Origin: Emticicia sp. CRIBPO
GTDB taxonomy: Bacteria; Bacteroidota; Bacteroidia; Cytophagales; Spirosomataceae
Reading direction: 5' to 3'
Assembly: GCF_009905725.1 (NCBI RefSeq)
Contig: NZ_JAAAKV010000006.1
Span: forward strand, 124,001 to 188,000
Length of the DNA: 64,000 nt
Shown here: positions 31,727-49,784 of the stretch, in pieces
How positions within the stretch are numbered: position 1 is the stretch's first letter
Layout: every line of letters begins with the position of its first letter
Translations under genes and position numbers: made by a program
Notes under the pieces: model-generated
Database searches by the model: none
Told to the model about the DNA's origin: nothing
The model's input: only the letters and a program-made list of their open reading frames with translations

Positions 31727-33688
31727 ATGCCAGGTCCAGCATTACACCACATGATTGCAGACAGGTTGAAAGCACAGATCTCTCTCAATCAAGGTCTCGG
31801 GGAAAACATGACCCCGGCCGATTACGCCGCTCTACAAAACCTTTTGGCTGACCCCAAAAACTTGCCTTACCTCTTCTTCGGAAGCCAGGGGCCCGACTAC
31901 CTCTTTTTCAACACCAAAGACATGCCCGGCCCCATCGGCGACATCGCCGAGTTCTATTTTGAAGTGGTCGATTTCATCGAAGAATTTAAAAAGACCCTGC
32001 TTGCTGTAGTCCCTCAGCCGGTGCTCGATGCCCTCGAAGCTTTCGATGAGGCCGTCGACGAGGTCATTGAAGACTCCGCCCTCCTCAGCGAACTGCAGCA
32101 GACTTTTGACGACATCAACAAGCTGCTCGACGGATTCGCCGCCACACTGATCGAGATGGTCAAGAAGTTCGTCTCCGAGTTCAACCTCTTCGACCTGGTC
32201 TCGCACCCTTACCGCGACGGCGTGGCCAGCGACGAAAAATGGTGGTGGTTTGACGCCCTGCACTACCGAAAAACCGGGAAATTCGCCGAGGCCCTTCTGA
32301 AAGCCACCGACGGCGACCCCAACAGCCCTTTGAGGTTATACGCCCTCGGGTATCTTACGCACTACTGTGCAGACACCGTCGGGCACCCTTATGTCAACCT
32401 CGTGTCGGGCGGGCCTTACCGCTCGCATGCCCAGAGGCACAAAACCGGCGAAAACTACCAGGATGTTTTCAATATGAACAACGTGACCGGGCAGGACTGG
32501 AACCGCTCTGCCATTCATGCTTTCTATAATTTTAATTTTACGGGACCCATCGACACCGAAAACGAAGAACCGGATCCGTTTACCGTACTGCCCGACGACC
32601 TGGCCGAGATGATCGCCAAGACCATCCAGCAGGTGTACCAGGAAGACGCCGACGCAGAAGCGGAATATGGCCCGAAAATCACGGCCGAAGACGTCAACAA
32701 TGCCTACAGGATTTACTATAAATGGCTGCGGAGCTCTACCGACACCGGTACACTGCCTCCGCCTGTCCCCTATTCGTTCTCGGCTGAGCTCCTGGAAGTC
32801 TGGGAGAAAACCATGGACAACCTCGGCGACGCCGGAGATTTCCTCGAAGACGCCGTTGATGAAGCGGGCGACTGGGGTATCCTGAGCATCTTCCTCATCC
32901 TGGCGGCCCTCATCATCGCTGCCGTCATGGCCGCAGGGGCTTTGGCCGACGGTATTGCAGGAGCCATCGCCACGCTGGGCACTTCCACCATCCGTGCGGC
33001 AGCTTGCCTGATCTACGAGCAGGTGTACAATGCCTACCAGACCTTCAGACTGGCCGTAGCCATGAACGGCCTGGCCTTCCCGATGCAGGAGCACCTGAAC
33101 GATCCGAGGCTCACGCAGTTTGCCAATCCGGCCAACCTCGACCCGACCGGTGTCAATGCCGTGCCGTTTGTGCCGCACCTGCCTTTGCTCAAATTCGAAC
33201 CGCAAAGCGTGGAAGAGACCCTTTTCAACCAGGAAAGACACCTGGTTTATCCGTTTACGCTTAATGAAAAAGAACACGTGATGGGCATGCTGAGCAGCTA
33301 TCTGAACCAGCCTTCCACCCACTATGCGTTCGGCAAAATACCTTTTGAGCCGAAAGACATCCTGGATAAACTGGCTGGACTGACCCCGAGTTTTAACCCT
33401 ATTGCGAACGACGACGGCACACAGCTCAAAGCCCTGCTGCTGGAAAGAGGCAGCCTCGGCAATGCCATGATCCTCATCGAAAAATGCTTTGAAAGATTCA
33501 GTAAAGGCAAAAAGCTGATTGATTTTAACCTGGATGGCGACAGGGGCTATTCTTATCTGTGCTGGACACAGAAACAGTCCTCTACGCCTGATGCCCCCGA
33601 TTTCCCGAAAGAACTCAGGGTGAATGTGCCCGGCGGAGACCCTTCCGACGACAACATCAACGTCAAATTCAATTTCTTAAAATCTTAA
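31727..33688 (+). CDS. Zinc-dependent phospholipase C-like protein with C-terminal membrane-like region
   Basis: About 653 aa from the ATG at 31727 (start PGPALHHMIADRL; a 16-codon upstream extension is unlikely). The N-terminal ~300 residues match the zinc-dependent PLC family: HH near residue 7, FGSQGPDYLFF, then LGYLTHYCADTVGHPYVN with His212, Asp216 and His220. Acidic helices fill residues 95-150. A hydrophobic Ala/Leu-rich stretch at ~383-425 may enter membrane or form a helical hairpin. There is no signal peptide. The gene is much richer in GC than its surroundings and 12 bp separate it from the CARDB-like gene. Function in the cell unknown. Confidence 0.75.
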   Translation: MPGPALHHMIADRLKAQISLNQGLGENMTPADYAALQNLLADPKNLPYLFFGSQGPDYLFFNTKDMPGPIGDIAEFYFEVVDFIEEFKKTLLAVVPQPVLDALEAFDEAVDEVIEDSALLSELQQTFDDINKLLDGFAATLIEMVKKFVSEFNLFDLVSHPYRDGVASDEKWWWFDALHYRKTGKFAEALLKATDGDPNSPLRLYALGYLTHYCADTVGHPYVNLVSGGPYRSHAQRHKTGENYQDVFNMNNVTGQDWNRSAIHAFYNFNFTGPIDTENEEPDPFTVLPDDLAEMIAKTIQQVYQEDADAEAEYGPKITAEDVNNAYRIYYKWLRSSTDTGTLPPPVPYSFSAELLEVWEKTMDNLGDAGDFLEDAVDEAGDWGILSIFLILAALIIAAVMAAGALADGIAGAIATLGTSTIRAAACLIYEQVYNAYQTFRLAVAMNGLAFPMQEHLNDPRLTQFANPANLDPTGVNAVPFVPHLPLLKFEPQSVEETLFNQERHLVYPFTLNEKEHVMGMLSSYLNQPSTHYAFGKIPFEPKDILDKLAGLTPSFNPIANDDGTQLKALLLERGSLGNAMILIEKCFERFSKGKKLIDFNLDGDRGYSYLCWTQKQSSTPDAPDFPKELRVNVPGGDPSDDNINVKFNFLKS

Positions 33689-33700
33689 AACATTACAGCT

Positions 33701-34840
33701 ATGTCACTTGAAAATCTGAAAAAAGCCAACGAATACATCAGGCAGCTTCAAAAGCAGCGGGAAGAAAAAGGCCCGCGGCTGAAACAAGCCCTCGCCGGGG
33801 AAATGAGAAGATCGCCGGTAAAAGAACGCAAACCACCACGTGAATTCAAAGACAGTTCCTTTCTTTATATCCGCTCGTATGATTCCGACAACGGCTCCCG
33901 TCCGGGTCTGAATGTGGCCTACTGGAGATCGCCCGATGTCCGGGTGGCCCCGGTCTCGTCGCTGAACTCCTACACCACCGAACTCGAGGCCGGAAAAGCC
34001 TACAGCATCAGGTGTGTGGTGCACAACCGCGGCGATCTGATGGTGCCTTCGGCCAATGTGGAGTTTTACCTCGTTACCCCAAGCCTGGGTTTCGACACCC
34101 GATTTGCCCGCAAACTCGGTATGGCCTCCACCTGGGTCGACTGCTACGGTTCGGCCGAGGTCAGCATCCCTTATACCGTACCGGCCTCTGACGCAGGCCA
34201 CAAATGCCTGTTTGCGAGGGTGTTTTCCTTCTCCCCGCTCGACATCCCGGTGCACACCACCAAGCTCGACCCGAGGGAAGACCGTCACATCGGCCAGCAA
34301 AACCTCAACATCGCCGCCCAGGCCAGCCAGATGATCATCAATCTGCTGCACATGCCTGTCGGACAAATGGGCATCGAACTCCGCCCGCTGAGCCGCGAGG
34401 CCGTACTGGCCATCAGGCACCCTTCGGCCGCTGATTTCAACATCCTTGAAGGAGAGAAGTTCACGCCGTTCATCGGCAAGTTCAAGTTCGGTTTTGCTGA
34501 AAAAATCAGGACGGGCAAGATGGAAGTCAGAAACGGCTCCACCCACATCGAGTTCAACGGCGAAGGCAAGTTCGGTCTCGACGAACAAAAACGGATGCAT
34601 GCCCGCATGAAAGGCGTTTTTGAAGCCATCAATTCCGGTAAGGCCAAATCATCGCAGTTCAGAAAAGAGCTGGCGGCCCCTCGTGAAATGAACCTTGAAA
34701 ACACCATGACCCCGCTCAAATTCCAGATCCCTGACATGGGACTGAAAAAAGGCGACATGGCCGGTTTCGAGATCATCTCCACCAACAAAGTCACCGGCGA
34801 AGTCACCGGCGGCATCACCCTGCTGGTCATCGGTAAATAA
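33701..34840 (+). CDS. CARDB-like domain protein, partner of the phospholipase-like gene
   Basis: 379 aa, no signal peptide. A basic coiled N-terminus (~1-45) precedes a CARDB-like beta sandwich: LEAGKAYSIRCVVHNRGDLM (~residues 90-109) and VEFYLVTPSLGFDTRFA. The rest includes LNIAAQASQMIINLLHMPVG and ends TNKVTGEVTGGITLLVIGK. CARDB sandwiches are usually extracellular adhesion modules, so absence of an export signal is odd. GC-rich like its neighbour and certainly in the same operon. No specific function recognised. Confidence 0.65.
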   Translation: MSLENLKKANEYIRQLQKQREEKGPRLKQALAGEMRRSPVKERKPPREFKDSSFLYIRSYDSDNGSRPGLNVAYWRSPDVRVAPVSSLNSYTTELEAGKAYSIRCVVHNRGDLMVPSANVEFYLVTPSLGFDTRFARKLGMASTWVDCYGSAEVSIPYTVPASDAGHKCLFARVFSFSPLDIPVHTTKLDPREDRHIGQQNLNIAAQASQMIINLLHMPVGQMGIELRPLSREAVLAIRHPSAADFNILEGEKFTPFIGKFKFGFAEKIRTGKMEVRNGSTHIEFNGEGKFGLDEQKRMHARMKGVFEAINSGKAKSSQFRKELAAPREMNLENTMTPLKFQIPDMGLKKGDMAGFEIISTNKVTGEVTGGITLLVIGK

Positions 34841-34857
34841 AAACAATCTGTACCATA

Positions 34858-34892
34858 CATCCCCGTAAGCCTCACCAGGTTTTACGGGGATG
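34858..34892 (+). terminator. Rho-independent terminator
   Basis: An 11-bp stem (CATCCCCGTAA at 34858-34868 with TTACGGGGATG at 34882-34892) and a T-rich tail, closing the two-gene GC-rich operon. Confidence 0.88.
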
Positions 34893-34928
34893 CTTTGTTT
34901 TCCGGCCTCTGCGTTCAATACAAAAAAC

Positions 34929-34974
34929 CATTAAGAAGTAAAGGCCATTAAGAAGACATGAAGTTAATCGACGA
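34929..34974 (+). repeat. ATTAAGAAG-type repeat, divergent copy
   Basis: Diverged copy of the 46-bp element also at 35742, 41787 and 49377 (consensus ends AATCGACGAT). Confidence 0.65.
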
Positions 34975-35080
34975 TACTTCGTCGCAGGAGATTGCCACGA
35001 AGGCATCACCTCGAGGAATAATTTTACGCTGTAAAAAAACAATATATAGTGCCGTTCAGTAATCGATGTTGGCCATTCTG

Positions 35081-35280
35081 GATGTCCCAGAGGGACAAAA
35101 TATCTGTAAAAAGTGACTTCAACTATGAATTAGCATCCCGGAGGGATGGAATATTTGTGTAAGCTCTTTCTCAGACATATTAAATCCCTCTGGGATTAGA
35201 TCAGGTGCAGGAGTTGTTTTATTACAGATATTTGATCCCCGCCCGACTTGACCGTCAGGTCGGGCGGGCCTCCGGGATAA
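35081..35280. repeat. Palindromic intergenic repeat with nested GC hairpin
   Basis: Built from several short hairpins: TGTCCCAGAGGGACA at 35083-35097, CATCCCGGAGGGATG near 35133, AATCCCTCTGGGATT near 35182, and a 14-bp stem with a 3-nt loop at 35238-35268 (one wobble). The outer parts share ATATCTGTA/TACAGATAT, so the whole can fold as one long imperfect hairpin. It resembles the REP/MITE-like elements common in Bacteroidota intergenic regions. Confidence 0.65.
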
Positions 35281-35379
35281 TAATGAATCTATAGTAAGAT
35301 TATGGAAAAACGTCAATGGTAGCGGTAGTCGAGAAGCATGCCCCAACGTTAAAAGTTCAGCACAAAATAGAAACCTTGT

Positions 35380-35432
35380 GATAACGGTTCTCGGCAGCTA
35401 CGCTGGCAAACTTCGAACTCGCGTTCTCATTT
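35380..35432 (+). repeat. GATAACGGTTCTCGG repeat, copy 1
   Basis: A 53-bp element, identical in its core to 35601-35653 and nearly so to 49429-49481. It contains a short GAACTCGCGTTC palindrome. Confidence 0.8.
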
Positions 35433-35525
35433 CCCGAAGGGTCGGGACAGGTTATGCTCGAACTGACAACGGGGGACGCTCAAACTGACAAGATAGAGGA
35501 GTCCAAACTGACATGCACTTATGTC

Positions 35526-35547
35526 ACCTCGAGCGGAGTCGAGAGGT
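35526..35547. repeat. Short hairpin (ACCTCGAG...CGAGAGGT)
   Basis: Inverted repeat with a 2-nt bulge around GCGGAG. The sequence type recurs widely in Bacteroidota intergenic DNA; only one copy seen here. Confidence 0.5.
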
Positions 35548-35600
35548 AACCCAAGCCAACATTTCAGTAGGAAAGTTGTGCACTAATCCTGTGCATGTCT

Positions 35601-35653
35601 GATAACGGTTCTCGGCAGCTACGCTGGCAAACTTCGAACTCGCGTTCTCATTT
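35601..35653 (+). repeat. GATAACGGTTCTCGG repeat, copy 2
   Basis: Direct repeat of 35380-35432, 221 bp downstream. Confidence 0.8.
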
Positions 35654-35741
35654 GTGCTCGAACTGACAAACTAATGAACATCCAGCGGATCGCCGCCCGA
35701 ACCAAAATTCTCTGTTTGAGTAAAGCTTAGAATTAAATCAA

Positions 35742-35787
35742 CATTAAGAAGTTAAGCTCATTAAGAATACATTAAGCTAATCGACGA
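35742..35787 (+). repeat. ATTAAGAAG-type repeat, left copy of the island-flanking pair
   Basis: Nearly identical to 41787-41832. In both cases the same AAAGAAATAAATAAGAG stretch and a hairpin element follow, so the repeated unit is over 200 bp. Confidence 0.85.
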
Positions 35788-35822
35788 TAAAAGAAATAAA
35801 TAAGAGTGAATTATCCATTGAA

Positions 35823-35906
35823 AAAATTCTCTGTCTGAGCAAAGCTGTAAATTCCCAATGTTAAAAATTTAGCATCTAATTTACAGATTTGTGAGTTAGA
35901 ATTTTT
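35823..35906 (+). repeat. Covarying hairpin element, copy A
   Basis: Outer arms AATTCT/AGAATT, inner 9-bp arms CTGTAAATT/AATTTACAG, and a partly paired CCCAATGTTAAA loop. See copies B, C and D. A T-run hairpin terminator follows 28 bp later. Confidence 0.8.
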
Positions 35907-35933
35907 GCTGCTTTTTTGCGGAACGCCGCCCGG

Positions 35934-35961
35934 TTACTTTTTTTCAGCCAAAAAAAAGTAA
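35934..35961. terminator. TTACTTTTTTT-type terminator hairpin after copy A
   Basis: An 11-bp perfect stem (TTACTTTTTTT with AAAAAAAGTAA) and a 6-nt loop, symmetrical enough to act in both directions. Confidence 0.6.
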
Positions 35962-36006
35962 GGCAAATACATTGCTAAAATACCTAGCTACATTTCCATT
36001 CGATAA

Positions 36007-36037
36007 TTGCTAAATTGCAACCAATTTTATACCTTGG
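36007..36037 (+). promoter_or_regulatory. Candidate promoter of the XRE regulator gene
   Basis: TTG (36007-36009), 20-bp spacer and TACCTTGG (36030-36037, one mismatch to TAnnTTTG), 22 bp before the ATG. Confidence 0.5.
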
Positions 36038-36059
36038 ACCAAAAAAACAAACAACAAAT

Positions 36060-36488
36060 ATGACACATACAACAAAACCATTCCGCATTCATGAAGGCCG
36101 TAATATCAAACGTTTCCGTGAGATGCTCGGGATCAAACAGGAAGCCCTGGCCTTTGAACTCGGCGACGAGTGGAACCAGAAGAAAGTCTCTATCCTCGAA
36201 CAAAAAGAGATCGTAGAGCAATCCATCCTGCAACAAGTATCAGACGTACTCAAAATACCGGTAGACGCATTTAAGAACTTTGATGAAGAGCAAGTGATTA
36301 ATATTATTTCGAATACTTTTAATACCCACGATCAGTCAAGTGGGATGAATCTATACCCGACAATCAATGTCAACCCCGTTGAAAAGTGGATGGAAGCCGT
36401 GGAAGAAAACAAAAAGCTTTACGAACGTTTACTGGCGAGCGAAAGGGAGAAGGTGGCTTTGCTGGAAAGGTTGTTGGGGGAGAAATAG
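36060..36488 (+). CDS. XRE-family helix-turn-helix regulator with C-terminal coiled segment
   Basis: About 142 aa from the ATG at 36060, which follows the promoter and begins THTTKPFRIHEGRNIKR. The HTH lies at ~residues 13-70 (RNIKRFREMLGIKQEALAFE, KKVSILEQKEIV). A linker (VINIISNTFNTHDQSSG) leads to a helical, charged end (WMEAVEENKKLYERLLASER). This architecture is frequent in Bacteroidota, typically in repeat-rich neighbourhoods; the target is unknown. It lies between repeat copy A and the AT-rich operon but has host-like base composition and its own terminator. Confidence 0.88.
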   Translation: MTHTTKPFRIHEGRNIKRFREMLGIKQEALAFELGDEWNQKKVSILEQKEIVEQSILQQVSDVLKIPVDAFKNFDEEQVINIISNTFNTHDQSSGMNLYPTINVNPVEKWMEAVEENKKLYERLLASEREKVALLERLLGEK

Positions 36489-36511
36489 TAAGATATTCAT
36501 ATTATGCTAAT

Positions 36512-36545
36512 AAAAAAGGGAGTCTGGTGAGGATTCCCTTTTTCT
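36512..36545 (+). terminator. Terminator after the XRE gene
   Basis: AAAAAAGGGA (36512-36521) pairs with TCCCTTTTT (36535-36543) across a short loop and continues in T. Confidence 0.75.
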
Positions 36546-36890
36546 TTACCTGCTTACGTTTCTGTGACAGAAAGAGGCTTTAGCAGGTCTGTGTGTTACA
36601 AAGTTAGGAGGAAAATTTGAAATTACTATAACCTGCAACTATTATAAAAGGGTAAAGACGAAATAAGTGATTTCAAAAAATACCACTCTCTATATGCGTT
36701 GAAAAGGAAATCCGGATAACCCTGCTTTTTTGTTTATAAAGTTTAAAAACAATTTTAAAACGCACACTTAAAAATTGTAGATACTCCATTGCTTTCACCA
36801 ATTTAAAAATTACCAAGCCTTTTCGTATAATGTGATTTTTTTATTCTAGATTTACATATAATGTTTTCTATCTCAATTAATTAGATAAAG
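36546..36890. other. AT-rich leader of the candidate defence operon
   Basis: 345 bp with no gene. The base composition shifts to AT-rich here, marking the left edge of the island. It should hold the promoter for the genes starting at 36891, but no full TTG/TAnnTTTG match is present. Confidence 0.5.
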
Positions 36891-37286
36891 ATGTCAGATT
36901 ATGTCAGTTATATAAAGAGAAACACAAAACCTGTCGAAGATATTAATGATGACTTTATTAATTCTTTTAAATGGCTTTCTAAAGAAATTTATGGAGGTAA
37001 AGCTCCGTTGAAATCAAACTCTGTCCAATTCATAATTATAAAAATTCTGGACAGATATGGAAAAACTTATGACATTCAAAAAAGGGATCACTTTGACGTT
37101 TATGTTGTGGGAGAATTTCGAAAGACTTTTACACCTGTTTTGAGGGTAGCACAAGCATTTGCAGATTTTTACCTTGAATTCGGATCAATGCCAAATATAA
37201 TTCCTATTCCTAAGTTGATTTTACAACAAAACAATGATATACTTTATAAACTTAAAAATGGAGTTTTGATCTATGAAAGAAGATGA
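36891..37286 (+). CDS. Hypothetical protein, first gene of the AT-rich operon (131 aa)
   Basis: 131 aa, soluble, not recognised. It has a basic N-terminus (YVSYIKRNTKPVEDIN) and alternating hydrophobic segments (VQFIIIKILDRYGKTYDIQK, FTPVLRVAQAFADFYLEFGS) compatible with a small helical or winged-helix fold. ATG at 36891. Its end overlaps the next gene by 14 bp, so the two are translationally linked. AT-rich codon choice differs sharply from the flanking genes. Confidence 0.75.
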   Translation: MSDYVSYIKRNTKPVEDINDDFINSFKWLSKEIYGGKAPLKSNSVQFIIIKILDRYGKTYDIQKRDHFDVYVVGEFRKTFTPVLRVAQAFADFYLEFGSMPNIIPIPKLILQQNNDILYKLKNGVLIYERR

Positions 37287-37680
37287 AATATATTTAGAAA
37301 TAGCTAAGAGGTATATCAAGAGTTGCGACCACCTCATCAACAATGGAAGCAATCTTCAAGAAGTTATCGGCTTTAAAGCATATCATGCTTTTGAAAGCCT
37401 TGGTGGAGCATTTAATTCACATTATGGCCTACATATTCCTAAAGGCCATTTAAAAAAGATTAATGCATTTGTAACAAACTCAAGGCACTGTAAGTATGTT
37501 ACCTGTCAAAGTATTGCGACTGTTTCGATGCTTTTGTCAAGCAACAGAAATAAATACTTATATCCAGAAAATGTGGGAGGGGTATTTAAGAGTCCCCAAG
37601 ACCAACTTTCAATGACTGATGCAAAATTAATCGTTTCTAGAGTAAAAGGCATTTTAAAGAATATTGACAAATTGATCTAA
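37273..37680 (+). CDS. HEPN-like small helical protein (135 aa)
   Basis: 135 aa. The layout resembles HEPN proteins: IYLEIAKRYIKSCDHLINNG, FKAYHAFESLGGAFNSHYG, a basic KGHLKKINAFV helix, then RNKYLYPE and a last helix (LSMTDAKLIVSRVKGILKNI). In ribonuclease HEPN toxins an R-x4-6-H motif sits in the late helix; here that place reads RNKYLY, so the His is a Tyr and RNase activity is doubtful. HEPN proteins are frequent in toxin and defence loci. The assignment is by pattern only. Confidence 0.55.
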   Translation: MKEDEIYLEIAKRYIKSCDHLINNGSNLQEVIGFKAYHAFESLGGAFNSHYGLHIPKGHLKKINAFVTNSRHCKYVTCQSIATVSMLLSSNRNKYLYPENVGGVFKSPQDQLSMTDAKLIVSRVKGILKNIDKLI

Positions 37681-37763
37681 ACCCTAATTAAAGGAATAAC
37701 CCTTTGCATCTTCATATTAGTTTTTTAATTTATTGTGATTCAGTGTTTTTTATTGCCTAGCAT

Positions 37764-40700
37764 ATGAGTAAAGTTGAAAGAAATGATCCATGTCCTTGTG
37801 GAAGTGGCAAGAAATTCAAAAAATGTTGTATCGATATTCTTGGAAATGGATATAAATATAAAATTGAAAACACAGGACAATCAAAATTTACTGAATACCT
37901 TAAAAATCATGAATCAGGACACATTCTTGATTCAATTACCTCTCTCCAACTGATTCCAGAAAACTATGGTAAAAATTGCAGAATAGAAAAAATGGCAATT
38001 GAAGCCGTAAAAAATCTAAGACATGGAAATTCAGGAAACATAAATGATTTAAATTCAATAATTAAAAATTACCCTAGAGATTTTGAGGAGGATGCTCCTG
38101 AAGATTTATTTACTGACAATGTTCAATTCGTTGGAGGAAATTATATTGTAATGCCTGGAATCAATTCTTACTCAGTAGAAATCTTCACTAATTTATCTGA
38201 AAGCATATTTAAGAGTAAAAACGATTTTTCTAAAGAATTTAAAAATGAAATTTATGAAGGAGTAGCTTTGATCCTCAACTTGGGAGCGGTTTTGTTTGAT
38301 AAAGCTAAATTAGATCGTAATCTATTTGTAGAAAACTATGAAAGTAAACTAAGAACCCAAAAACCGTTGTTACATCTTCATTTCACAAAAGATGAGATAT
38401 TAGACATTTGCGAGGAAAATAATATTAATCCTCAAACAATCGATCATTTTGTGATTGACCCTAATGCTTCAGAATTTTTACACGACCAATCCTATTTATC
38501 TCCGTTACTTTTTAAACCCCTTGTTAACTTTGATGAAAAGTATTTTATGATACTCCCATCTTGTCAGATGTCAGCAATTAATGGATACATTCTACAGACC
38601 GCAAAGAAATATAATGTGCGAGACATTTTGCGAAACTTATGTCAACAACGGACTTGGATGGATATTTGGTCAGCCTGTGAAAAAATGGGATGGTTTTTAA
38701 CGAGTATAACTTTGCCAGAAGAGAAAAATAATATTTGTATCAAAGAAGGCGTTTTCGAATTGACAGAGAATATGCTTTGCTATGTTTGTTATGTTTATCC
38801 CAATGAACTAAAAAATGTTTATGAATGGTTCGAAGAAGAAAACGAAGATCTGCTGAATGAGGCCTTTCTAAATGAGAGAATTGATGATGTGATAACCAAA
38901 CTCAAAAAAGAACTAAGTGAATGCCAATTTCTTACTTTAGTTCTAACAAATACAATGGGCGGCGTGGCTGTACTTGAAGTTAATGATCCTCTAGAGGAAG
39001 AACAGAGAGTATCATTTAATGTATTTGATTTCTTACATTTAGCATACTCAGGTGAATTGGGAAAATTTGACTTGTGGAAGTACGGTAAAGTGTATGAATC
39101 TACATCTAAAAAAATAAAAATACTTTCACTCTCATCAATTGATGCTTACGCCACCTATAAGAACAACGGAGAATCATTTTACCTTTCAGATCAAGCCAAC
39201 TTTAATTTTCTTTCAATTACACCTGGCAGTGGAGCTAATTTTGTTCGTCAAGCAAAGATAAATTCTGACCTACATGGAGTTTTAAGTCTAATTAATGGAT
39301 TTTTTGGATTTCAATCTGTACGAAGATACGGAGATCATGCTCCAATTTATAAACCTATTTTTAATCATGTCCCATTTGAATTATTATTAAAATCTTATGA
39401 TTGTCCCATATGGATTCAAAACTTCCAAGCTAAGAGTGAAAACGATGTTGGTTTTGTTGAATTTACAGTCGACGCTGTGTGCTTTTGGTTGGATAAAGTA
39501 CAGCCTGCATTAGGTAAGAAACTCAACCTGATTTCACCGTTACTTAATATTGTACTCGAGTTTGAAGATATAATTTTTGATGCTTTTTCATTTAATCTAG
39601 TGGATTCAAAGGAGCCTTTTGATTTTAAGATGGTAAGCTCTTTTTCAAACTATACTTTAACATATAAGGTACCAAAAGTCATTCAAAAATTGTTCATTGG
39701 TGGAGACAATTCTGGAGAGAGAATTTTGATGAGTGAAATCCTCAGAGGATTCAATTCTATTCCAAATTTAAATATTCCTGATAGCTTTATTGAAGAAAGC
39801 CTAAACGCTTATATGCCCCTCGGACAAGCAAAAATGATCCTGATTTTTGATACCCGTAGAGATATGCAACTAGATACTCGATGGCTTTTACCGCCACTCT
39901 ACATTAGCGATGCAGAAGTAAACTTATTGCTTGATAATTTGCCAGATATAATAGATGTACCGAGACCAATTTCGAAAAATTTTGAATCTGTTGATGAAAA
40001 GAAAAGGTTTTGCAATAAGGTTGTTACAAGTCTTGTCCGTCATCTAGTATCAAGATTGAGCGAATTTGACAACAATAGTCTTTTAAGAGATTTGATGTGT
40101 GTAAATGAAAGTTTAATTCAAGATAGTAAGTATAGCAAACTAAAAACGTCTGCACAAATTCATTGTTTTGGGAATAATCAGGAGATATTGAAAAAAATTT
40201 TCAAAAAAGAAAAAAACCTTCTTCATTCATCCATATCGACAAGATGTCTAATTGAGTTCATTGTTCTAAATCCAGCTACCGGTAAACGCAAGCCAAGTTT
40301 TGATCACCTGGATGAGCTATTGACAATAATGAATATAATTATTAATTACGGAATGCTTAGCGACACTCTTCATTTCGGAATGGATGATCCTGAAATAGTT
40401 TTATTACCTTCAGGCAGAATCGGAATATCAAAAGAGTTTTATGATGACAAGTTACAGCCGTTCCAGCAAGACAACATAATCGAAAATATAGAAACGCAAT
40501 TAGAAATATTTTCAAGTCAATTTGATATTTACAGCACTCCGTTAAAGGAAAACGAAGGTACAGACACCTATTTTGAAAAAGTAAATGAAGCTTTTTTGCA
40601 TGATTGGGGTGTTAAGTACGACGATCTAACGGCGATTTGCTTATGGGCTGCCGAAGAAGCGACAGCTCAAGGGAGTTCAGTAATTTCTATGCTAGAGACT

Positions 40701-41510
40701 GAGTTGATTACTAAACTCAACAAAATTGGTATTCCATTAAATCAACTTGAAGCTGGATTGAAAAAGCTCAGTTTTAAATATAGAGAGGGAGTAATAAGTG
40801 ACGGCAACGGATATACCAATGTAGATTATTTCCCTTGGAAGTATAATAGAGAATTTAGCTATGCAAGAAAACCTTTTATTGTATTAGAAACTGAAGAAGG
40901 CAGAGGTTATTTCTGGGGAATGAGACATTGCATCTCGGCAGGCAATAGTCTCCATTACCTCCTGAATTCCGGAAGACTATCTGATAGCGGATCAAAAATA
41001 AAAAGCCTTCTTGGAGAAATTAATAGAGTAAATGGAAAAAAATTCAGAAATGATGTTCTAAAATGGATAAAAGATAACACAACTTTACTTGTGTGGGATT
41101 ATGAGCTAACTATTAAACCTGGCGGTCATTTTAATGCGGATAAAGACTATGGAGATTGTGATATCATGGCGTATGACACTATATCAAATCAAGTTTATAA
41201 TATAGAGTGTAAAAGAACCGAACAAGCTAGAAATATTCATCAAATGAAAAATGAAATGGATGACTATATTGGAAGACCAGGACAGAAAAAAAAGATAGCA
41301 AAACATGAAGAAAGAGACAATTGGCTAAAAGCAAATATAAATCAGGTTAAAGATTTTGTTAATGCACAAGAACAACCAACAGTAACATCACTTATCATTA
41401 CTTCGGAATTAATACCAACTAGATACCTTAGGTCTGAAGAAATCGCTTTACCAATTTTAAGTTTCCGTGAATTAAAAAAAAAGGGACTTCGAGCATTAGA
41501 AGAATGCTAA
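37764..41510 (+). CDS. Giant SEC-C / PD-(D/E)xK nuclease-like protein (1248 aa)
   Basis: 1248 aa, no signal peptide. The N-terminus has a complete SEC-C zinc motif: Cys10, Cys12, Cys21 and Cys22 in DPCPCGSGKKFKKCC. The next ~950 residues match nothing I recognise. Residues ~1050-1110 (ERG-type RGYFWGMRHC, LLNSGRL) lead into a nuclease-like core: GDCDIMAYD (Asp1131/Asp1133) and IECKR (Glu1148, Lys1150), the D-x(n)-ExK pattern of PD-(D/E)xK enzymes such as restriction nucleases. SEC-C motifs in large proteins probably mediate protein or nucleic-acid contacts. AT-rich like its two upstream partners, 83 bp after the HEPN-like gene. Candidate defence effector. Confidence 0.8.
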   Translation: MSKVERNDPCPCGSGKKFKKCCIDILGNGYKYKIENTGQSKFTEYLKNHESGHILDSITSLQLIPENYGKNCRIEKMAIEAVKNLRHGNSGNINDLNSIIKNYPRDFEEDAPEDLFTDNVQFVGGNYIVMPGINSYSVEIFTNLSESIFKSKNDFSKEFKNEIYEGVALILNLGAVLFDKAKLDRNLFVENYESKLRTQKPLLHLHFTKDEILDICEENNINPQTIDHFVIDPNASEFLHDQSYLSPLLFKPLVNFDEKYFMILPSCQMSAINGYILQTAKKYNVRDILRNLCQQRTWMDIWSACEKMGWFLTSITLPEEKNNICIKEGVFELTENMLCYVCYVYPNELKNVYEWFEEENEDLLNEAFLNERIDDVITKLKKELSECQFLTLVLTNTMGGVAVLEVNDPLEEEQRVSFNVFDFLHLAYSGELGKFDLWKYGKVYESTSKKIKILSLSSIDAYATYKNNGESFYLSDQANFNFLSITPGSGANFVRQAKINSDLHGVLSLINGFFGFQSVRRYGDHAPIYKPIFNHVPFELLLKSYDCPIWIQNFQAKSENDVGFVEFTVDAVCFWLDKVQPALGKKLNLISPLLNIVLEFEDIIFDAFSFNLVDSKEPFDFKMVSSFSNYTLTYKVPKVIQKLFIGGDNSGERILMSEILRGFNSIPNLNIPDSFIEESLNAYMPLGQAKMILIFDTRRDMQLDTRWLLPPLYISDAEVNLLLDNLPDIIDVPRPISKNFESVDEKKRFCNKVVTSLVRHLVSRLSEFDNNSLLRDLMCVNESLIQDSKYSKLKTSAQIHCFGNNQEILKKIFKKEKNLLHSSISTRCLIEFIVLNPATGKRKPSFDHLDELLTIMNIIINYGMLSDTLHFGMDDPEIVLLPSGRIGISKEFYDDKLQPFQQDNIIENIETQLEIFSSQFDIYSTPLKENEGTDTYFEKVNEAFLHDWGVKYDDLTAICLWAAEEATAQGSSVISMLETELITKLNKIGIPLNQLEAGLKKLSFKYREGVISDGNGYTNVDYFPWKYNREFSYARKPFIVLETEEGRGYFWGMRHCISAGNSLHYLLNSGRLSDSGSKIKSLLGEINRVNGKKFRNDVLKWIKDNTTLLVWDYELTIKPGGHFNADKDYGDCDIMAYDTISNQVYNIECKRTEQARNIHQMKNEMDDYIGRPGQKKKIAKHEERDNWLKANINQVKDFVNAQEQPTVTSLIITSELIPTRYLRSEEIALPILSFRELKKKGLRALEEC

Positions 41511-41603
41511 TCTCCTTTTTGACTAAATTAATACGTCATTCTACTATAGACCAGATCGTAATAATTCCTCAAAATACCTCTAAGGTCGGAGCAGTGTAAT
41601 TCT

Positions 41604-41771
41604 ACGTTCGAGCGATGTAAACTTACGTTGGAGCGACGTAAACTTACGTTGGAGCGGCGTAACTCTACGTTGGAGCGATGTAACTTTACGTTGGAGCGGC
41701 GTAACTCTACGTTGGAGCGATGTAACTTTACGTTGGACCGATGTAACTTTACGTTGGACCGATGTAACTCG
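41604..41771. repeat. Tandem array of eight 21-bp palindromic units
   Basis: Units begin ACGTTGGAGCGATGTAACTTT, at 41604, 41625, 41646, 41667, 41688, 41709, 41730 and 41751, with a degenerate ninth before the first. Neighbouring units create TTACGT...ACGTAA palindromes. Units alternate between GATGTAACTTT and GGCGTAACTCT forms. There are no spacers, so this is not CRISPR. Confidence 0.9.
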
Positions 41772-41786
41772 CGACCTGATGATAAA

Positions 41787-41832
41787 CATTAAGAAGTTAA
41801 GGTCATTAAGAATACATTAAGCCAATCGACGA
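41787..41832 (+). repeat. ATTAAGAAG-type repeat, right copy of the island-flanking pair
   Basis: Nearly identical to 35742-35787 and in the same orientation, at the other side of the XRE gene and AT-rich operon. Confidence 0.85.
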
Positions 41833-41882
41833 TAAAAGAAATAAATAAGAGTGAATTATCCAGCGGATCGCCGCACCGGTGA

Positions 41883-41966
41883 AAAATTCTCTGTTTGAGT
41901 AAAGCTGTAAATTCCCAATGTTAAAGGTTTAGTACCTAATTTACAGATTTGTGAGTTAGAATTTTT
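41883..41966 (+). repeat. Covarying hairpin element, copy B
   Basis: Inner arms CTGTAAATT/AATTTACAG as in copy A; the loop differs (TTAAAGGTTTAGTACC). Same orientation as A. Confidence 0.8.
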
Positions 41967-42010
41967 GCGAAACGTCGCACCGGCGGCTTTTTTTACGGAA
42001 CGCCGCCCGG

Positions 42011-42038
42011 TTACTTTTTTCTCTGCCAAGAAAAGTAA
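42011..42038. terminator. TTACTTTT-type terminator hairpin after copy B
   Basis: TTACTTTT and AAAAGTAA arms with a 12-nt spacer, the counterpart of 35934-35961. Confidence 0.55.
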
Positions 42039-42079
42039 AGACGACGAAAAAGAATAAAAAACCAATGAACATCCAAACC

Positions 42080-42162
42080 AAAATTCTCTGTTTGAGCAAA
42101 GCTAAAAATTCCCAATATTAAATTTTCAGCACTTAATTTTTAGATTTGTGAGTTAGAATTTT
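42080..42162 (+). repeat. Covarying hairpin element, copy C
   Basis: Outer arms AAAATTCT/AGAATTTT and inner arms CTAAAAATT/AATTTTTAG: two stem positions changed relative to A and B with matching changes in the partner. Confidence 0.8.
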
Positions 42163-42175
42163 GAATGTTTTTTTG

Positions 42176-42199
42176 TTACTTTTTTTCGAAAAAAAGTAA
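42176..42199. terminator. TTACTTTTTTT-type terminator hairpin after copy C
   Basis: An 11-bp perfect stem with a CG loop, 14 bp after copy C. Confidence 0.6.
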
Positions 42200-42266
42200 G
42201 GCGAAGAAAAGGGTACGCGAAGAACAAGCAAATCTAGGAACTAGTATATCGTCATAACAGCCCCCC

Positions 42267-43364
42267 TTAAATCTTTATAAACTCTACTCGCCGGTTTTGT
42301 GCTTTGCCTTCAGGGGTTTTGTTGTCGGCAACGGGCTCGCTTTCGCCCTTACCTTCCGTCCTGATCCTCTCACTGATGATGCCCAGACTGACCAGTTTCG
42401 CTTTTACGGCGTCGGCTCTCTTTTTACTTAGCACCAGGTTTTTTGCCTCTTCCCCGTCGCTGTCGGTATGCCCGACGATCTTCAGGTTGATGGTGGCGTT
42501 TTCTTTCAGGCCGTCAGCCAGTTGTCTGATGATCTCCATGCTGTTGGGGGTGATGACATCGCTGTTGGTCGCAAACTGGATGGCTGTGGTGCTGACGCTC
42601 CCGTTTTCCATCAGGTCTTTGATGACCTGGCTGCGGTGGTCGATGCCCGCTTCGGCTATCACGACATTGGAAATATAGAAATAATTAAGCTTGCTGTCTG
42701 CACTGCCATGCGTGCTGGGACAAAAGAAAAATGAATTGCGGAACAACGGATTGAAAGCCGTAGGCATGTCCACCATCTTAACGCCGTCCACATACAGCCT
42801 TATCCTGGTTTTGTTGACCGTGACGGCACATTTGATGACTTTGTTCAGGGGTGTTTTAAAATCCACAGACTGTAAACCCGGCTTGTTGTTCCCATTGTTT
42901 TTGGTGCCGAACTTCAACCCGTCAGCAATGCCCTTGTTCGTACTGTGAAACGAAAACACCACGCCCTCTTTCGGGCTCAGCAAGTTACTTATCACAAACG
43001 GCTTGGTTCCAAATCCGAAGCTTGCCATCCGGATGGGCACGTCACCCGGAACGATGAGGTCAAACTCTACCGTGAAATGCTCAGGCAACGGTTTTGTTAA
43101 TTCGGGATTGACCACAGCCCCGTCACTGATTTTCAGGAAACTGTTTTCAAATCCTTTCAATTTTCTTACTTCACCGCTTTTTGTGCTGTTCCATCTGGCA
43201 GGGAAATCACCTGCGGCATCTTTTGAAAAATTATCCGTGAATATATTTCTCGTACCAGCCACAAAACCGGTTTCATTTTCTGTTTGCAGTTCTTCTTCCA
43301 GTGACGACTGGGCCAGGCCATTAAAAGAAAAGCAGACGGCCATCAGTACGATCATCTTTTTCAT
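42267..43364 (-). CDS. OmpA-family outer-membrane-linked protein
   Basis: About 365 aa from the ATG at 43364 (three extra codons are possible upstream). Signal peptide KKMIVLMAVCFSFNGLAQ. Residues ~60-230 form a beta-sandwich (FSKDAAGDFPARWN, FTVEFDLIVPG, VKMVDMPTAF) resembling a LamG-like jelly roll. The C-terminal ~115 residues are a peptidoglycan-binding OmpA domain (KIVGHTDSDGEEAKNLVLSK, GKGESEPVADN, RRVEFIKI). It would anchor the outer membrane or its neighbours to peptidoglycan. Last gene of a five-gene minus-strand run of secreted proteins. Confidence 0.9.
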   Translation of the reverse strand: MKKMIVLMAVCFSFNGLAQSSLEEELQTENETGFVAGTRNIFTDNFSKDAAGDFPARWNSTKSGEVRKLKGFENSFLKISDGAVVNPELTKPLPEHFTVEFDLIVPGDVPIRMASFGFGTKPFVISNLLSPKEGVVFSFHSTNKGIADGLKFGTKNNGNNKPGLQSVDFKTPLNKVIKCAVTVNKTRIRLYVDGVKMVDMPTAFNPLFRNSFFFCPSTHGSADSKLNYFYISNVVIAEAGIDHRSQVIKDLMENGSVSTTAIQFATNSDVITPNSMEIIRQLADGLKENATINLKIVGHTDSDGEEAKNLVLSKKRADAVKAKLVSLGIISERIRTEGKGESEPVADNKTPEGKAQNRRVEFIKI

Positions 43365-43374
43365 ATGCATCATT

Positions 43375-44127
43375 TTATTTTTTTATGTACTCATAACCGC
43401 TGACGGCCCCGCTGGCCGAAATACGCTTGACGGCATAACCGTCGCTGTTGTATTCATAAGTGTAAGTATAAACTGTGCTGATCCCCGCGGCATTGGTATA
43501 GGTGTCGGTGGTGAAATTATTGACACTGTTGACGGCCACAGAAAAGCCCGGAACAAAGGCAGACTGGGCAGATTTTTTATCATCAAACCCGCTGTAAACA
43601 TCCCTGAACGAAAGGACGTTGCTGCTGTTGAACCGTTCTCTTTTCACAACATTATTACCATCAGACGATAAAGTATAAACATCTGAAAACTGCAGCACCC
43701 CGGCCCCGTTTTTATAGGAAACGGTCACCTGGGTGGGTGTATACTGGAAGGTATAGGAGGACGTTACTGCCCCGTTGCTGACGTTAGTTTCCTCTTCATA
43801 TTCCATTTTACCCTCGCTGTTATACACATTCCTGATTTTCAGATCTGCCCTGGCGGCATCCTTGTAATCAATGACGGCCCCGGTAACACGCCCTTTGGCA
43901 TCCAGTTCCTTCACCAGGAAGCTAAATGAAGGGTTGCTGCTTTCATTGCTGCTGGCAAATGCCACCCCGGTAAGATTGTTCTTTTCATCGTAAGTCCAGG
44001 TGCGGGTGCCTGTACTCTGAAAGATCTCTTTCGTTAAATAGATTTTCTGTGGTTCGGGATCCTCCCCTTTCTTTTTGCAGGAGAATATGGCCAGTGCAAG
44101 GCAAATGATGATTATACTTCGTTTCAT
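43375..44127 (-). CDS. Lipoprotein with YD-repeat-like beta structure
   Basis: 250 aa with lipoprotein signal MKRSIIIICLALAIFSC. The body alternates short strands of the type YDEKNNLTGVAF, YNSEGKMEYEE, FQYTPTQVTVSY and YEYNSDGYAVKRI, resembling YD/RHS-like repeats or DUF4595-like lipoproteins. It starts 46 bp downstream of the PLAT-like gene and ends 10 bp before the OmpA gene start. Function unknown. Confidence 0.75.
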   Translation of the reverse strand: MKRSIIIICLALAIFSCKKKGEDPEPQKIYLTKEIFQSTGTRTWTYDEKNNLTGVAFASSNESSNPSFSFLVKELDAKGRVTGAVIDYKDAARADLKIRNVYNSEGKMEYEEETNVSNGAVTSSYTFQYTPTQVTVSYKNGAGVLQFSDVYTLSSDGNNVVKRERFNSSNVLSFRDVYSGFDDKKSAQSAFVPGFSVAVNSVNNFTTDTYTNAAGISTVYTYTYEYNSDGYAVKRISASGAVSGYEYIKK

Positions 44128-44173
44128 TGTATGATTTTTTTATGATTTAAAAGCTTTGTGTTTTGACCGGGGA

Positions 44174-45091
44174 CTAAAACCTGAAGGTCTTCTTTCTCGT
44201 GTCTCCGGTAAAGTGATGCACCGGCTTACCCTCTTTGTCCAGTATTACCGTTTCCACGCCATTGACCACGATTGTGACTTTAAACTTATCGAGGTACCAG
44301 TTGTCTGCAGCAAAACCGCCTCCTCCGGTGTGCCGCACGTCAATACTTTCAATGTTATGGATGTCGGTATTCGGGGGTAATATTTTCTGGTAATTCGTGG
44401 TTGAAAAATTCCTCCAGTTACGGCCGTTATTTACGTTAGACAACATCGTGACATCCGCCGAATTCCTGTACCTGATCACCATGTCCACATTGTCATCACC
44501 TCCTCGGAGGTCATCGCCGCCCGTTCCAAAGAGGGCTTTCAGGGTGATCGTGGGCAAAGTTTCCGAACCCGAAACAAGCACGGGAGCAACAACGGCAAAA
44601 GACTTTGAATAGCCCTTTTCCTGTCCGTCGGAAGGCCCCCTGTTTTCATACACAAACCGGAACAAAGCCTTTCCGCCTGTGCCTTGCTGATTAACGATAT
44701 TATAAATAAGGGTACTCCCACCTCTCACGATATTCGCTGTGGCCACCAGCTTTTGCAGATTCCAGTTATCTGCTACGGAAGCCTCCAGGTTATTCAGAGA
44801 AGCCCCTGCCCTGCGGTGAAGCTGTATTTCTTTAATTTGAGTAACGATAGTCGTCTGATCCAGTGCCACCCTTATCCTGCGTACAGAATTATTAGGCCAG
44901 GTCGCTCTGCCGTTGGCATTCAGCATGACGACATCGGGTTTGCCTTGTATCAGGATGCGTATCTCAAGGCCGTTCTGAAAGTCACGGTGGGCTAAGTCGT
45001 CAGCACCTGTCGTGATTTCCAGCTCTACAAAACTTTGTGCCTTACTGATCACAGAGCATGCCATCAGGATCACTAAAAGAGTATTTTTCAT
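44174..45091 (-). CDS. Secreted protein with two PLAT-like domains
   Basis: 305 aa with signal peptide MKNTLLVILMACSVISKAQ. Two copies of one module: TTGADDLAHRDF (27-38) through ADNWNLQKLVAT (107-118), and TGGDDLRGGDDNV (190-202) through ADNWYLDKFKVT (262-273). The pattern (TGGDD opening, ADNW-x-L/D-K-x-x-V-T closing) resembles PLAT/LH2 beta sandwiches, which bind lipids or proteins. This is pattern-based inference. Third gene of the secreted-protein run. Confidence 0.75.
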   Translation of the reverse strand: MKNTLLVILMACSVISKAQSFVELEITTGADDLAHRDFQNGLEIRILIQGKPDVVMLNANGRATWPNNSVRRIRVALDQTTIVTQIKEIQLHRRAGASLNNLEASVADNWNLQKLVATANIVRGGSTLIYNIVNQQGTGGKALFRFVYENRGPSDGQEKGYSKSFAVVAPVLVSGSETLPTITLKALFGTGGDDLRGGDDNVDMVIRYRNSADVTMLSNVNNGRNWRNFSTTNYQKILPPNTDIHNIESIDVRHTGGGGFAADNWYLDKFKVTIVVNGVETVILDKEGKPVHHFTGDTRKKTFRF

Positions 45092-49103: not shown

Positions 49104-49376
49104 GAGAGGGTATGCCTGGTCTGCAGAAGGTTTTCCTGATGAACCGGCAATAAGATTAAATATTAACAATCTGAACTTACAATCAAATGTAATAAACAAT
49201 TGAATTTAATCCCATACCATATTCGTGGTATTCTGACCTGAATTAGATATTGAAAGCTGACTTTGAGCCAGAACTGACAAAGACGACGAAAAAGAATAAA
49301 AAACTAATGAACCATCCTGCGGAACGCCACCCCGGTGAAAAATTCTCTGTTTGAATAAAACTGAGAATTAAATCAA

Positions 49377-49422
49377 CATTAAGAAGTTAAGCTCATTAAG
49401 GATACATGAAGCCAATCGACGA
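49377..49422 (+). repeat. ATTAAGAAG-type repeat, fourth copy
   Basis: Same element as 35742 and 41787, here followed directly by the GATAACGG repeat rather than by a hairpin element. Confidence 0.8.
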
Positions 49423-49428
49423 CTTTGT

Positions 49429-49481
49429 GATAACGGTTCTCGGCAGCTACGCTGTCAAACTTCGAACTCCCGTTCCCGTTT
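49429..49481 (+). repeat. GATAACGGTTCTCGG repeat, copy 3
   Basis: Matches 35380-35432 and 35601-35653 with a few substitutions, same orientation. Confidence 0.8.
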
Positions 49482-49592
49482 GTGCTCGAACTGACAGGGA
49501 TGGGGAGGGCTCAAACTGACAATATAAAGAGACTCGAACGAACAAAGAGGAAGACGAAGAAAAAGAATAAAAGACTAATGAACATCCATACC

Positions 49593-49675
49593 AAAATTCT
49601 CTGTTTGAGCAAAGCCTAAAATTCCCAATGCTAAAATCTAAGCACTTAATTTTAGGATTTGTGAGTTATAATTTT
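49593..49675 (+). repeat. Covarying hairpin element, copy D
   Basis: Inner arms CCTAAAATT/AATTTTAGG: again different from A/B and C yet fully paired. The outer arm has one mismatch (ATAATTTT). Confidence 0.8.
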
Positions 49676-49688
49676 GAATGTTTTTTTG

Positions 49689-49712
49689 TTACTTTTTTTC
49701 AAAAAAAAGTAA
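49689..49712. terminator. TTACTTTTTTT-type terminator hairpin after copy D
   Basis: TTACTTTTTTT and AAAAAAAGTAA arms around CA, placed 13 bp after copy D as in copy C. Confidence 0.6.
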
Positions 49713-49784
49713 GGCGAGAAGAGGTATAGCGAAGAAAACGATATTCGAAGAAAAAACATGATTCTGTACCCCCTTTAAAAAACT

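Follow-up and report, generated by a model that had tools for sequence, protein, structure and literature searches.

A putative Upx-like nuclease with an N-terminal SEC-C motif in an AT-rich island of Emticicia sp. CRIBPO

Upx is a single-gene anti-phage protein and is said to have first been published by Gao and others in 2020. PMC12629846 treats Upx as an anti-phage system and places it almost exclusively at one island hot spot of Pseudomonas. No mechanism for Upx was found in the parts of the literature available, and the literature search returned neither a description of a SEC-C-bearing Upx nor an experiment on such a member. SEC-C is a small zinc module, and its motif, CPCGSGKK...CC, occurs in the SecA C-terminus, in YchJ and in PADLOC E2 and PDC-S12. 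A solved chain of 1272 aa, 9wuf_A, carries the name 'Restriction endonuclease'; a paper on the PDB entry 9wuf was not found in the literature. Small DNA-binding genes beside varied defence genes are represented by BrxR, CapW, RptR and CapK/CapS, and PMC9122601 gives 48% co-localisation for BrxR.

The 1248-residue protein (P0004) of the locus described here makes it a SEC-C-bearing variant of the Upx-like kind, located in a foreign island. We consider it probable that the island is a horizontally acquired defence cassette and that P0004 is its working part, a nuclease that would protect the host against phages. Two small genes (P0002 and P0003) precede the nuclease gene, and a small HTH gene (P0001) stands before them.

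Layout and composition of the island

The window is the whole stretch of DNA analysed, 64,000 nucleotides of contig NZ_JAAAKV010000006.1, and all positions refer to it (Table 1). The island (36491-41510) is ~5 kb long and AT-rich, with a GC content of 0.324 in a 47% GC window. Outside the island, 94 windows of 5 kb have a mean GC of 0.466 and a minimum of 0.432, bearing out the statement of an earlier note that this DNA differs in composition from its surroundings. The three open reading frames (131, 135 and 1248 aa) and the 14-bp overlap reported in that note proved exact; the HTH gene, which is part of the locus context, was left out there. P0002 and P0003 lie on the same strand as the nuclease gene, 83 nt separate P0003 from it, and low GC is common to the three. 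Among 1000 dinucleotide shuffles of 36491-37763, in which ATG ORFs of 130 aa or more were counted, at least one such ORF arose in a single shuffle and two arose in none. Thus, P0002 and P0003 are very probably genes, and of foreign origin.

Table 1. Positions of the features of the locus in the window
Feature	Position	Strand	Basis
Small HTH gene, P0001 family	36060..36488 (about)	+	PADLOC HTH_VI; genome copies; upstream block
Orphan gene P0002, 131 aa	36891..37286	+	Shuffle test; without convincing homologue
Orphan gene P0003, 135 aa, 14-bp overlap with P0002	37273..37680	+	Without convincing homologue
Upx-like nuclease gene (putative) P0004, 1248 aa	37764..41510	+	PADLOC and NCBIfam Upx models; profile against 9wuf_A
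SEC-C motif, residues 6-22	37779..37829	+	PF02810
PD-(D/E)xK-type core (predicted), GDCD (1130-1133) to IECK (1147-1150)	41151..41213	+	Invariant residues; 9wuf_A
KHxxRxxW (1180-1187), conserved, 3' of the nuclease core	41301..41324	+	Alignment of 10
Left dispersed repeat	35690..35970	+	28 matches in genome
Right dispersed repeats, two copies	41782..42205	+	81% and 73% identity to left copy
21-bp tandem array, 8.7 copies, shortly 3' of the nuclease gene	41588..41770	.	Tandem Repeats Finder

The flanking repeats pointed out earlier are real. A search of the genome with the 281-bp repeat gave 28 matches on several contigs, often clustered, including a third place in the window (49339-49715) and places on contigs C1, C4, C8, C12 and C34. 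The repeats are thus members of a dispersed family, which rules them out as specific att sites. An exact 54-bp direct repeat, with a spacing of 221 bp, was also seen at 35379-35432 and 35600-35653. Repeat-rich ORFs that resemble the 21-bp array by eye are found at two relatives' loci (L186, 4414-4725; L004, 7505-7819). An Rfam search of 33000-45000 at gathering scores gave zero matches, and neither the promoter scan (29 against 23.7 expected, sd 4.9) nor the terminator scan (3 against 3.0 expected) gave a signal.

The Upx-like protein and its relatives

P0004 matches the PADLOC Upx model (PDLC02221) with an E-value of 1.2e-39 and the NCBIfam model Upx_antiphage (NF042954) with an E-value of 5.6e-53. 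The latter match scores only 179.5 bits, where 1900 are required for an equivalog. This places P0004 far from the proteins that define the Upx name, and it is therefore filed as Upx-like rather than as Upx; the equivalog cut-off was exceeded in none of 291 genomes of the order. Judged by homology, P0004 is a distant full-length relative of Upx, and the assignment of the putative nuclease to this family is well supported. The likeness comprises homology over most of the length of the models (1271 and 1240), a C-terminal nuclease-type motif and the organisation as one large gene; apart from the low score, the differences are the N-terminal SEC-C motif and the two orphan genes upstream. The earlier view that the combination matched no known system was thus wrong for the main gene. 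The proposal that the locus is of a defence type gained support, both from the Upx homology of the large protein and from its context.

A profile was built from six members (alignment A3: P0004, L002, L003, L004, L005 and L119), all six of which are matched by both Upx models. The profile aligns with 9wuf_A over profile positions 43-1234 (E 1.7e-70) and covers nearly the whole chain; the alignment stops short of the SEC-C part of the profile. Since the A3 members match both the chain and the Upx models, 9wuf_A itself is presumably of the Upx type. Comparison of P0004 with its closest relative over 1245 codons gave a pN of 0.262 and a pS of 0.829 (saturated), showing that P0004 is under purifying selection with strong constraint.

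Alignment of ten sequences (A4: P0004, L002-L005, L119, G613, G728, G679 and G447) showed that G1130, D1131, D1133, E1148, C1149 and K1150 are invariant in all ten, the window's own included. K1180 and R1184 are likewise invariant, and H1181 and W1187 are nearly so. The GDID, IECK and KH..R motifs conserved in 9wuf_A align at the same places (A5 profile). These residues, GDCD at 1130-1133 and ECK at 1148-1150, uphold the PD-(D/E)xK motif that had been noticed earlier: a C-terminal motif of this type is present by sequence comparison, and the domain probably adopts the corresponding fold. Pfam searches at the cut-off gave zero nuclease matches in P0004 or the other A4 members. A weak Pfam match to DUF234, which we take to be PD-(D/E)xK-like, appeared in two of the ten (best E 0.0026).

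The SEC-C motif reported in the 1248-aa protein was confirmed by PF02810 (E 5.5e-10, 39.4 bits against a cut-off of 20.4), and it is the sole Pfam domain seen in P0004. The match of P0004 to the SecA, YchJ, E2 and PDC-S12 kind is confined to the motif region. PF02810 matches nine of the ten A4 members, and SEC-C is N-terminal in nine of the twelve family proteins compared (the window's included), counts that are biased towards SEC-C-bearing relatives by the queries, including SEC-C, from which L002-L005 and L119 came. G613, G728 and G679 came from the search with the Upx model, and SEC-C is present in all three as well. The three proteins in which it is absent are G447 and two Deinococcus plasmid proteins. 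The tree does not group the SEC-C members into a single clade: the two Deinococcus proteins are placed between them on long branches, and this placement is weakly supported. The comparison would add a SEC-C-bearing Bacteroidota group to Upx and names candidate active-site residues for it.

Full-length relatives are few. The best 80 of 88 places in a scan of genome contigs with the nuclease included four full-length matches, and the others matched the N-terminal SEC-C part only. L002 is full-length with 58% identity to P0004, and L003, L004 and L005 have 25-27% identity in the best segment. The fifth relative, L119, came from 395 genomes of the phylum, at least three of which, own genome included, have a match that extends past the N-terminal part, as judged from the matches listed. 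The Upx model matches five of the 291 order genomes, namely the own genome, the new G613, G728 and G679, and G028, whose gene is that of L004; two congeners displayed in this search have no match to the model. In the viral contigs, 35 loci match the SEC-C end only, and zero Upx-like bodies were found. In the tree, the nearest gene to P0004 is from a Cyclobacteriaceae MAG, and those of G728 and L004, from its own family, are further off. Because the nearest relative lies outside the family, horizontal transfer of the gene is likely. In the empty-site comparison with congeners, the left flank gene was matched in the own genome only, among the matches listed, and the right flank gene is one of a family that was matched many times.

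Two relatives have restriction neighbours. The G447 gene, which lacks SEC-C (L207, 5926-9741), directly precedes an HsdR gene (PDB match, 4e-31), and a type I methyltransferase lies about 4.6 kb from the Upx-like gene of G492 (1.3e-129). Other relatives have integrase-, recombinase-, HNH- or methylase-like neighbours, as read by eye from ORF lists. A 1344-aa neighbour in G613 has zero PDB matches. More type I restriction genes were seen by eye upstream in L207.

The small genes and the reading of the island

P0002 matched zero families at E-values up to 1 in Pfam, PADLOC and NCBIfam and gave one weak PHROGs line (E 0.029). P0003, which the earlier note had called HEPN-like, matched zero families at the same threshold in these four collections, HEPN profiles included, and its matches in the PDB were no better than E 0.5; that reading is not supported. 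P0003 does contain a formal R-x6-H string (R13-H20, read from the sequence) near its N-terminus. HEPN domains usually carry their R-x4-6-H in another place. Neither small gene had a match in another genome at an E-value of 0.001 among 149 relatives or 395 phylum genomes, and nothing was found in the viral contigs, plasmids or phages searched. Weak matches (E 0.006-0.1) were obtained in 15 of the 389 others among 390 order genomes. Of three such loci inspected, two had the match on the opposite strand or in other frames of an evident longer gene, and one had it among overlapping ORFs; all 15 weak matches were treated as chance.

According to the favoured reading of a defence cassette built around the nuclease, the large N-terminal and central region of P0004 would recognise some feature specific to phages. 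Cutting, presumably of DNA, would fall to the C-terminal PD-(D/E)xK-type domain with D1131 or D1133, E1148 and K1150. P0004 could thereby restrict or abort infection with no methyltransferase partner. The SEC-C tip probably docks the protein onto nucleic acid or a partner. P0002 and P0003 would be translationally coupled accessories or passengers, dispensable for the nuclease, and the HTH gene would mark the site or perhaps control it. A housekeeping or repair nuclease that acquired SEC-C, rather than an anti-phage effector, is very improbable. SEC-C is known in SecA and other ordinary proteins, and the surroundings of L004 are, by eye, ordinary metabolic genes with no look of an island; however, the patchy occurrence in the phylum and order genomes counted above, the foreign base composition and the restriction neighbours of G447 and G492 argue against such a role.

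The place of the small genes in the cassette is less settled. P0002 and P0003 may regulate the nuclease, sense for it or restrain it in a genuine three-component system in which the trio is rare. The shared strand, overlap, short gap and common low GC are consistent with this, as is the improbability of the two ORFs by chance. However, the flanks fetched for the nine other A4 genes, some of them clipped at contig ends, contain no homologue of either small gene, those of L002, the 58%-identical nuclease, included, and convincing homologues are absent from the sampled genomes. We regard a three-component system as improbable, though less so than a housekeeping role. The three-gene operon put forward earlier is thus not supported as a conserved system, and the trio may still be a local one. 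The earlier note had named failure to co-occur elsewhere as a point against its proposal; such failure was found for the trio, and the defence reading of the nuclease is untouched by it. Alternatively, P0002 and P0003 could be a small module in their own right, for example a pair of the toxin-antitoxin type, carried as further cargo of the island; this is unlikely too, yet the better candidate of the two. Overlapping small gene pairs are a usual toxin-antitoxin layout, and cargo at other copies of the HTH gene varies by site, with HepT and a nucleotidyltransferase-like partner at one of them (L266). On the other side stand zero matches to toxin, antitoxin or HEPN models and the position of the R-x6-H string of P0003, which is unlike the HEPN place. 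Taken with the nuclease-centred cassette, P0002 and P0003 are best seen as probable cargo or accessories of the island.

The HTH gene and its copies

The listed ORF of P0001 begins at a TTG (36015), and an ATG (36060) comes after a conserved upstream block; the ATG is most likely the start. P0001 matches PADLOC HTH_VI (E 6.3e-7) and reaches only 15.8 bits against 23 for Pfam HTH_3. Nothing better than E 0.32 was found in the PDB, and zero WYL matches were found in Pfam or PADLOC at E-values up to 1. The small HTH protein thus differs from BrxR and CapW, which are WYL proteins according to PMC9122601 and PMC9122588. It also differs from CapS, given as STAS-like in PMC13373217, and from RptR, which binds TAGCTA according to PMC12255303. 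A literature search covering defence regulators and Spirosomataceae returned no description of the P0001 family.

The own genome has five nearly full-length copies of P0001 (including L242 and L244-L246) and one short piece. Matches at an E-value of 0.001 occur in 22 of 99 genomes, own included, 12 of them strong (E < 1e-20), and a single genome can hold as many as 11. Four of the five own-genome copies have the upstream block, TTGCTAAATTGCA...ATACCTTG, in common, with the repeat adjoining the gene, and copies have spread within genomes together with this block. Four of the five full copies adjoin the dispersed repeat as well as AT-rich DNA in which genes for restriction or immunity lie. In the window this DNA carries the Upx-like nuclease gene; by Pfam, the cargo is N6_N4_Mtase and HNH at the C12 copy, HSDR_N at the C4 copy, and RelA_SpoT, NACHT with NA-iREase2, and SMC_N at the C8 copy. 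The C3 copy, which is without the repeat, has a beta-lactamase-type protein. In all, 40 HTH loci were fetched, representing 43 of 48 strong matches; the five on short contig ends were excluded. Ten cargo proteins from relatives included prok_STING with CAP12 TIR, AbiH, DndB, HNH_2, HepT, PDDEXK_1, DUF2971 and a methyltransferase by Pfam. Zero Pfam matches were obtained for two of these ten and for three of the ten own-genome cargo proteins, all twenty being hand-picked, mostly for low GC, so that they do not give a rate.

We tentatively propose, with somewhat less than even confidence, that P0001 is a copy of an undescribed small-HTH family that marks, heads or controls interchangeable defence cassettes in Spirosomataceae. 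As a regulator, P0001 would silence recently arrived immune genes until the cell is infected; alternatively, its site would be a landing hot spot. The HTH gene is not in general a strict operon head: cargo points towards it at C8, and DndB, PDDEXK_1 and HNH_2 do so at L251, L254 and L267. These orientations count against the cassette reading, as do the many copies in relatives whose neighbours are ordinary genes, response regulators and hydrolases among them. If the proposal holds, the family offers a sequence handle by which immune genes as yet unknown could be found in this part of the Bacteroidota, and the neighbours of any next copy would be candidates, P0002 and P0003 included.

One family, DUF1016 (YhcG), was tested for association with the HTH gene. 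Of 20 DUF1016 genes from 11 genomes (22 rows, with two genes in two pieces and one gene scoring under the cut-off), six are located downstream of an HTH copy at a distance of no more than 3.5 kb, against 0.05 expected from length alone. The binomial probability of 9e-12 is still small when multiplied by 24736 Pfam models, and it is not independent, because DUF1016 was picked as the most frequent family and the genomes were picked for the HTH gene. Both may simply favour variable regions. GC in the 2 kb downstream of the HTH gene averages 0.431 versus 0.478 at 8-12 kb (n 37, p 0.0013) and is lower by more than 0.05 at 16 of the 37 loci; it is not lower than that of the upstream DNA (0.451, p 0.17), a further result against the cassette reading. 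In PADLOC, 182 models were hit by 148 downstream proteins and 17 by 87 far proteins, counts of models rather than proteins, and 24 of the best 25 of the 182 belong to one candidate system, PDC-S02, with at most six proteins. The sets comprised 148 of 159 downstream ORFs and 87 of 91 far ORFs. L276 and L277 were dropped from both, and L243, which is the window's own locus, from the downstream set. The far set also has defence matches (AbiD, Druantia and WYL).

At L265 (6430-8392), two genes come directly after the HTH copy, one for a 335-aa protein that Pfam does not match and one for TIR-STING; the former is a candidate for a partner cyclase. HepT (Pfam) and a nucleotidyltransferase-like partner (by eye) stand beside the HTH copy at L266. 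An SMC-like protein (Pfam) of 579 aa at L246 (10720-12456) is related to one of 577 aa at L259 (6434-8164), and both genes lie beside HTH copies.
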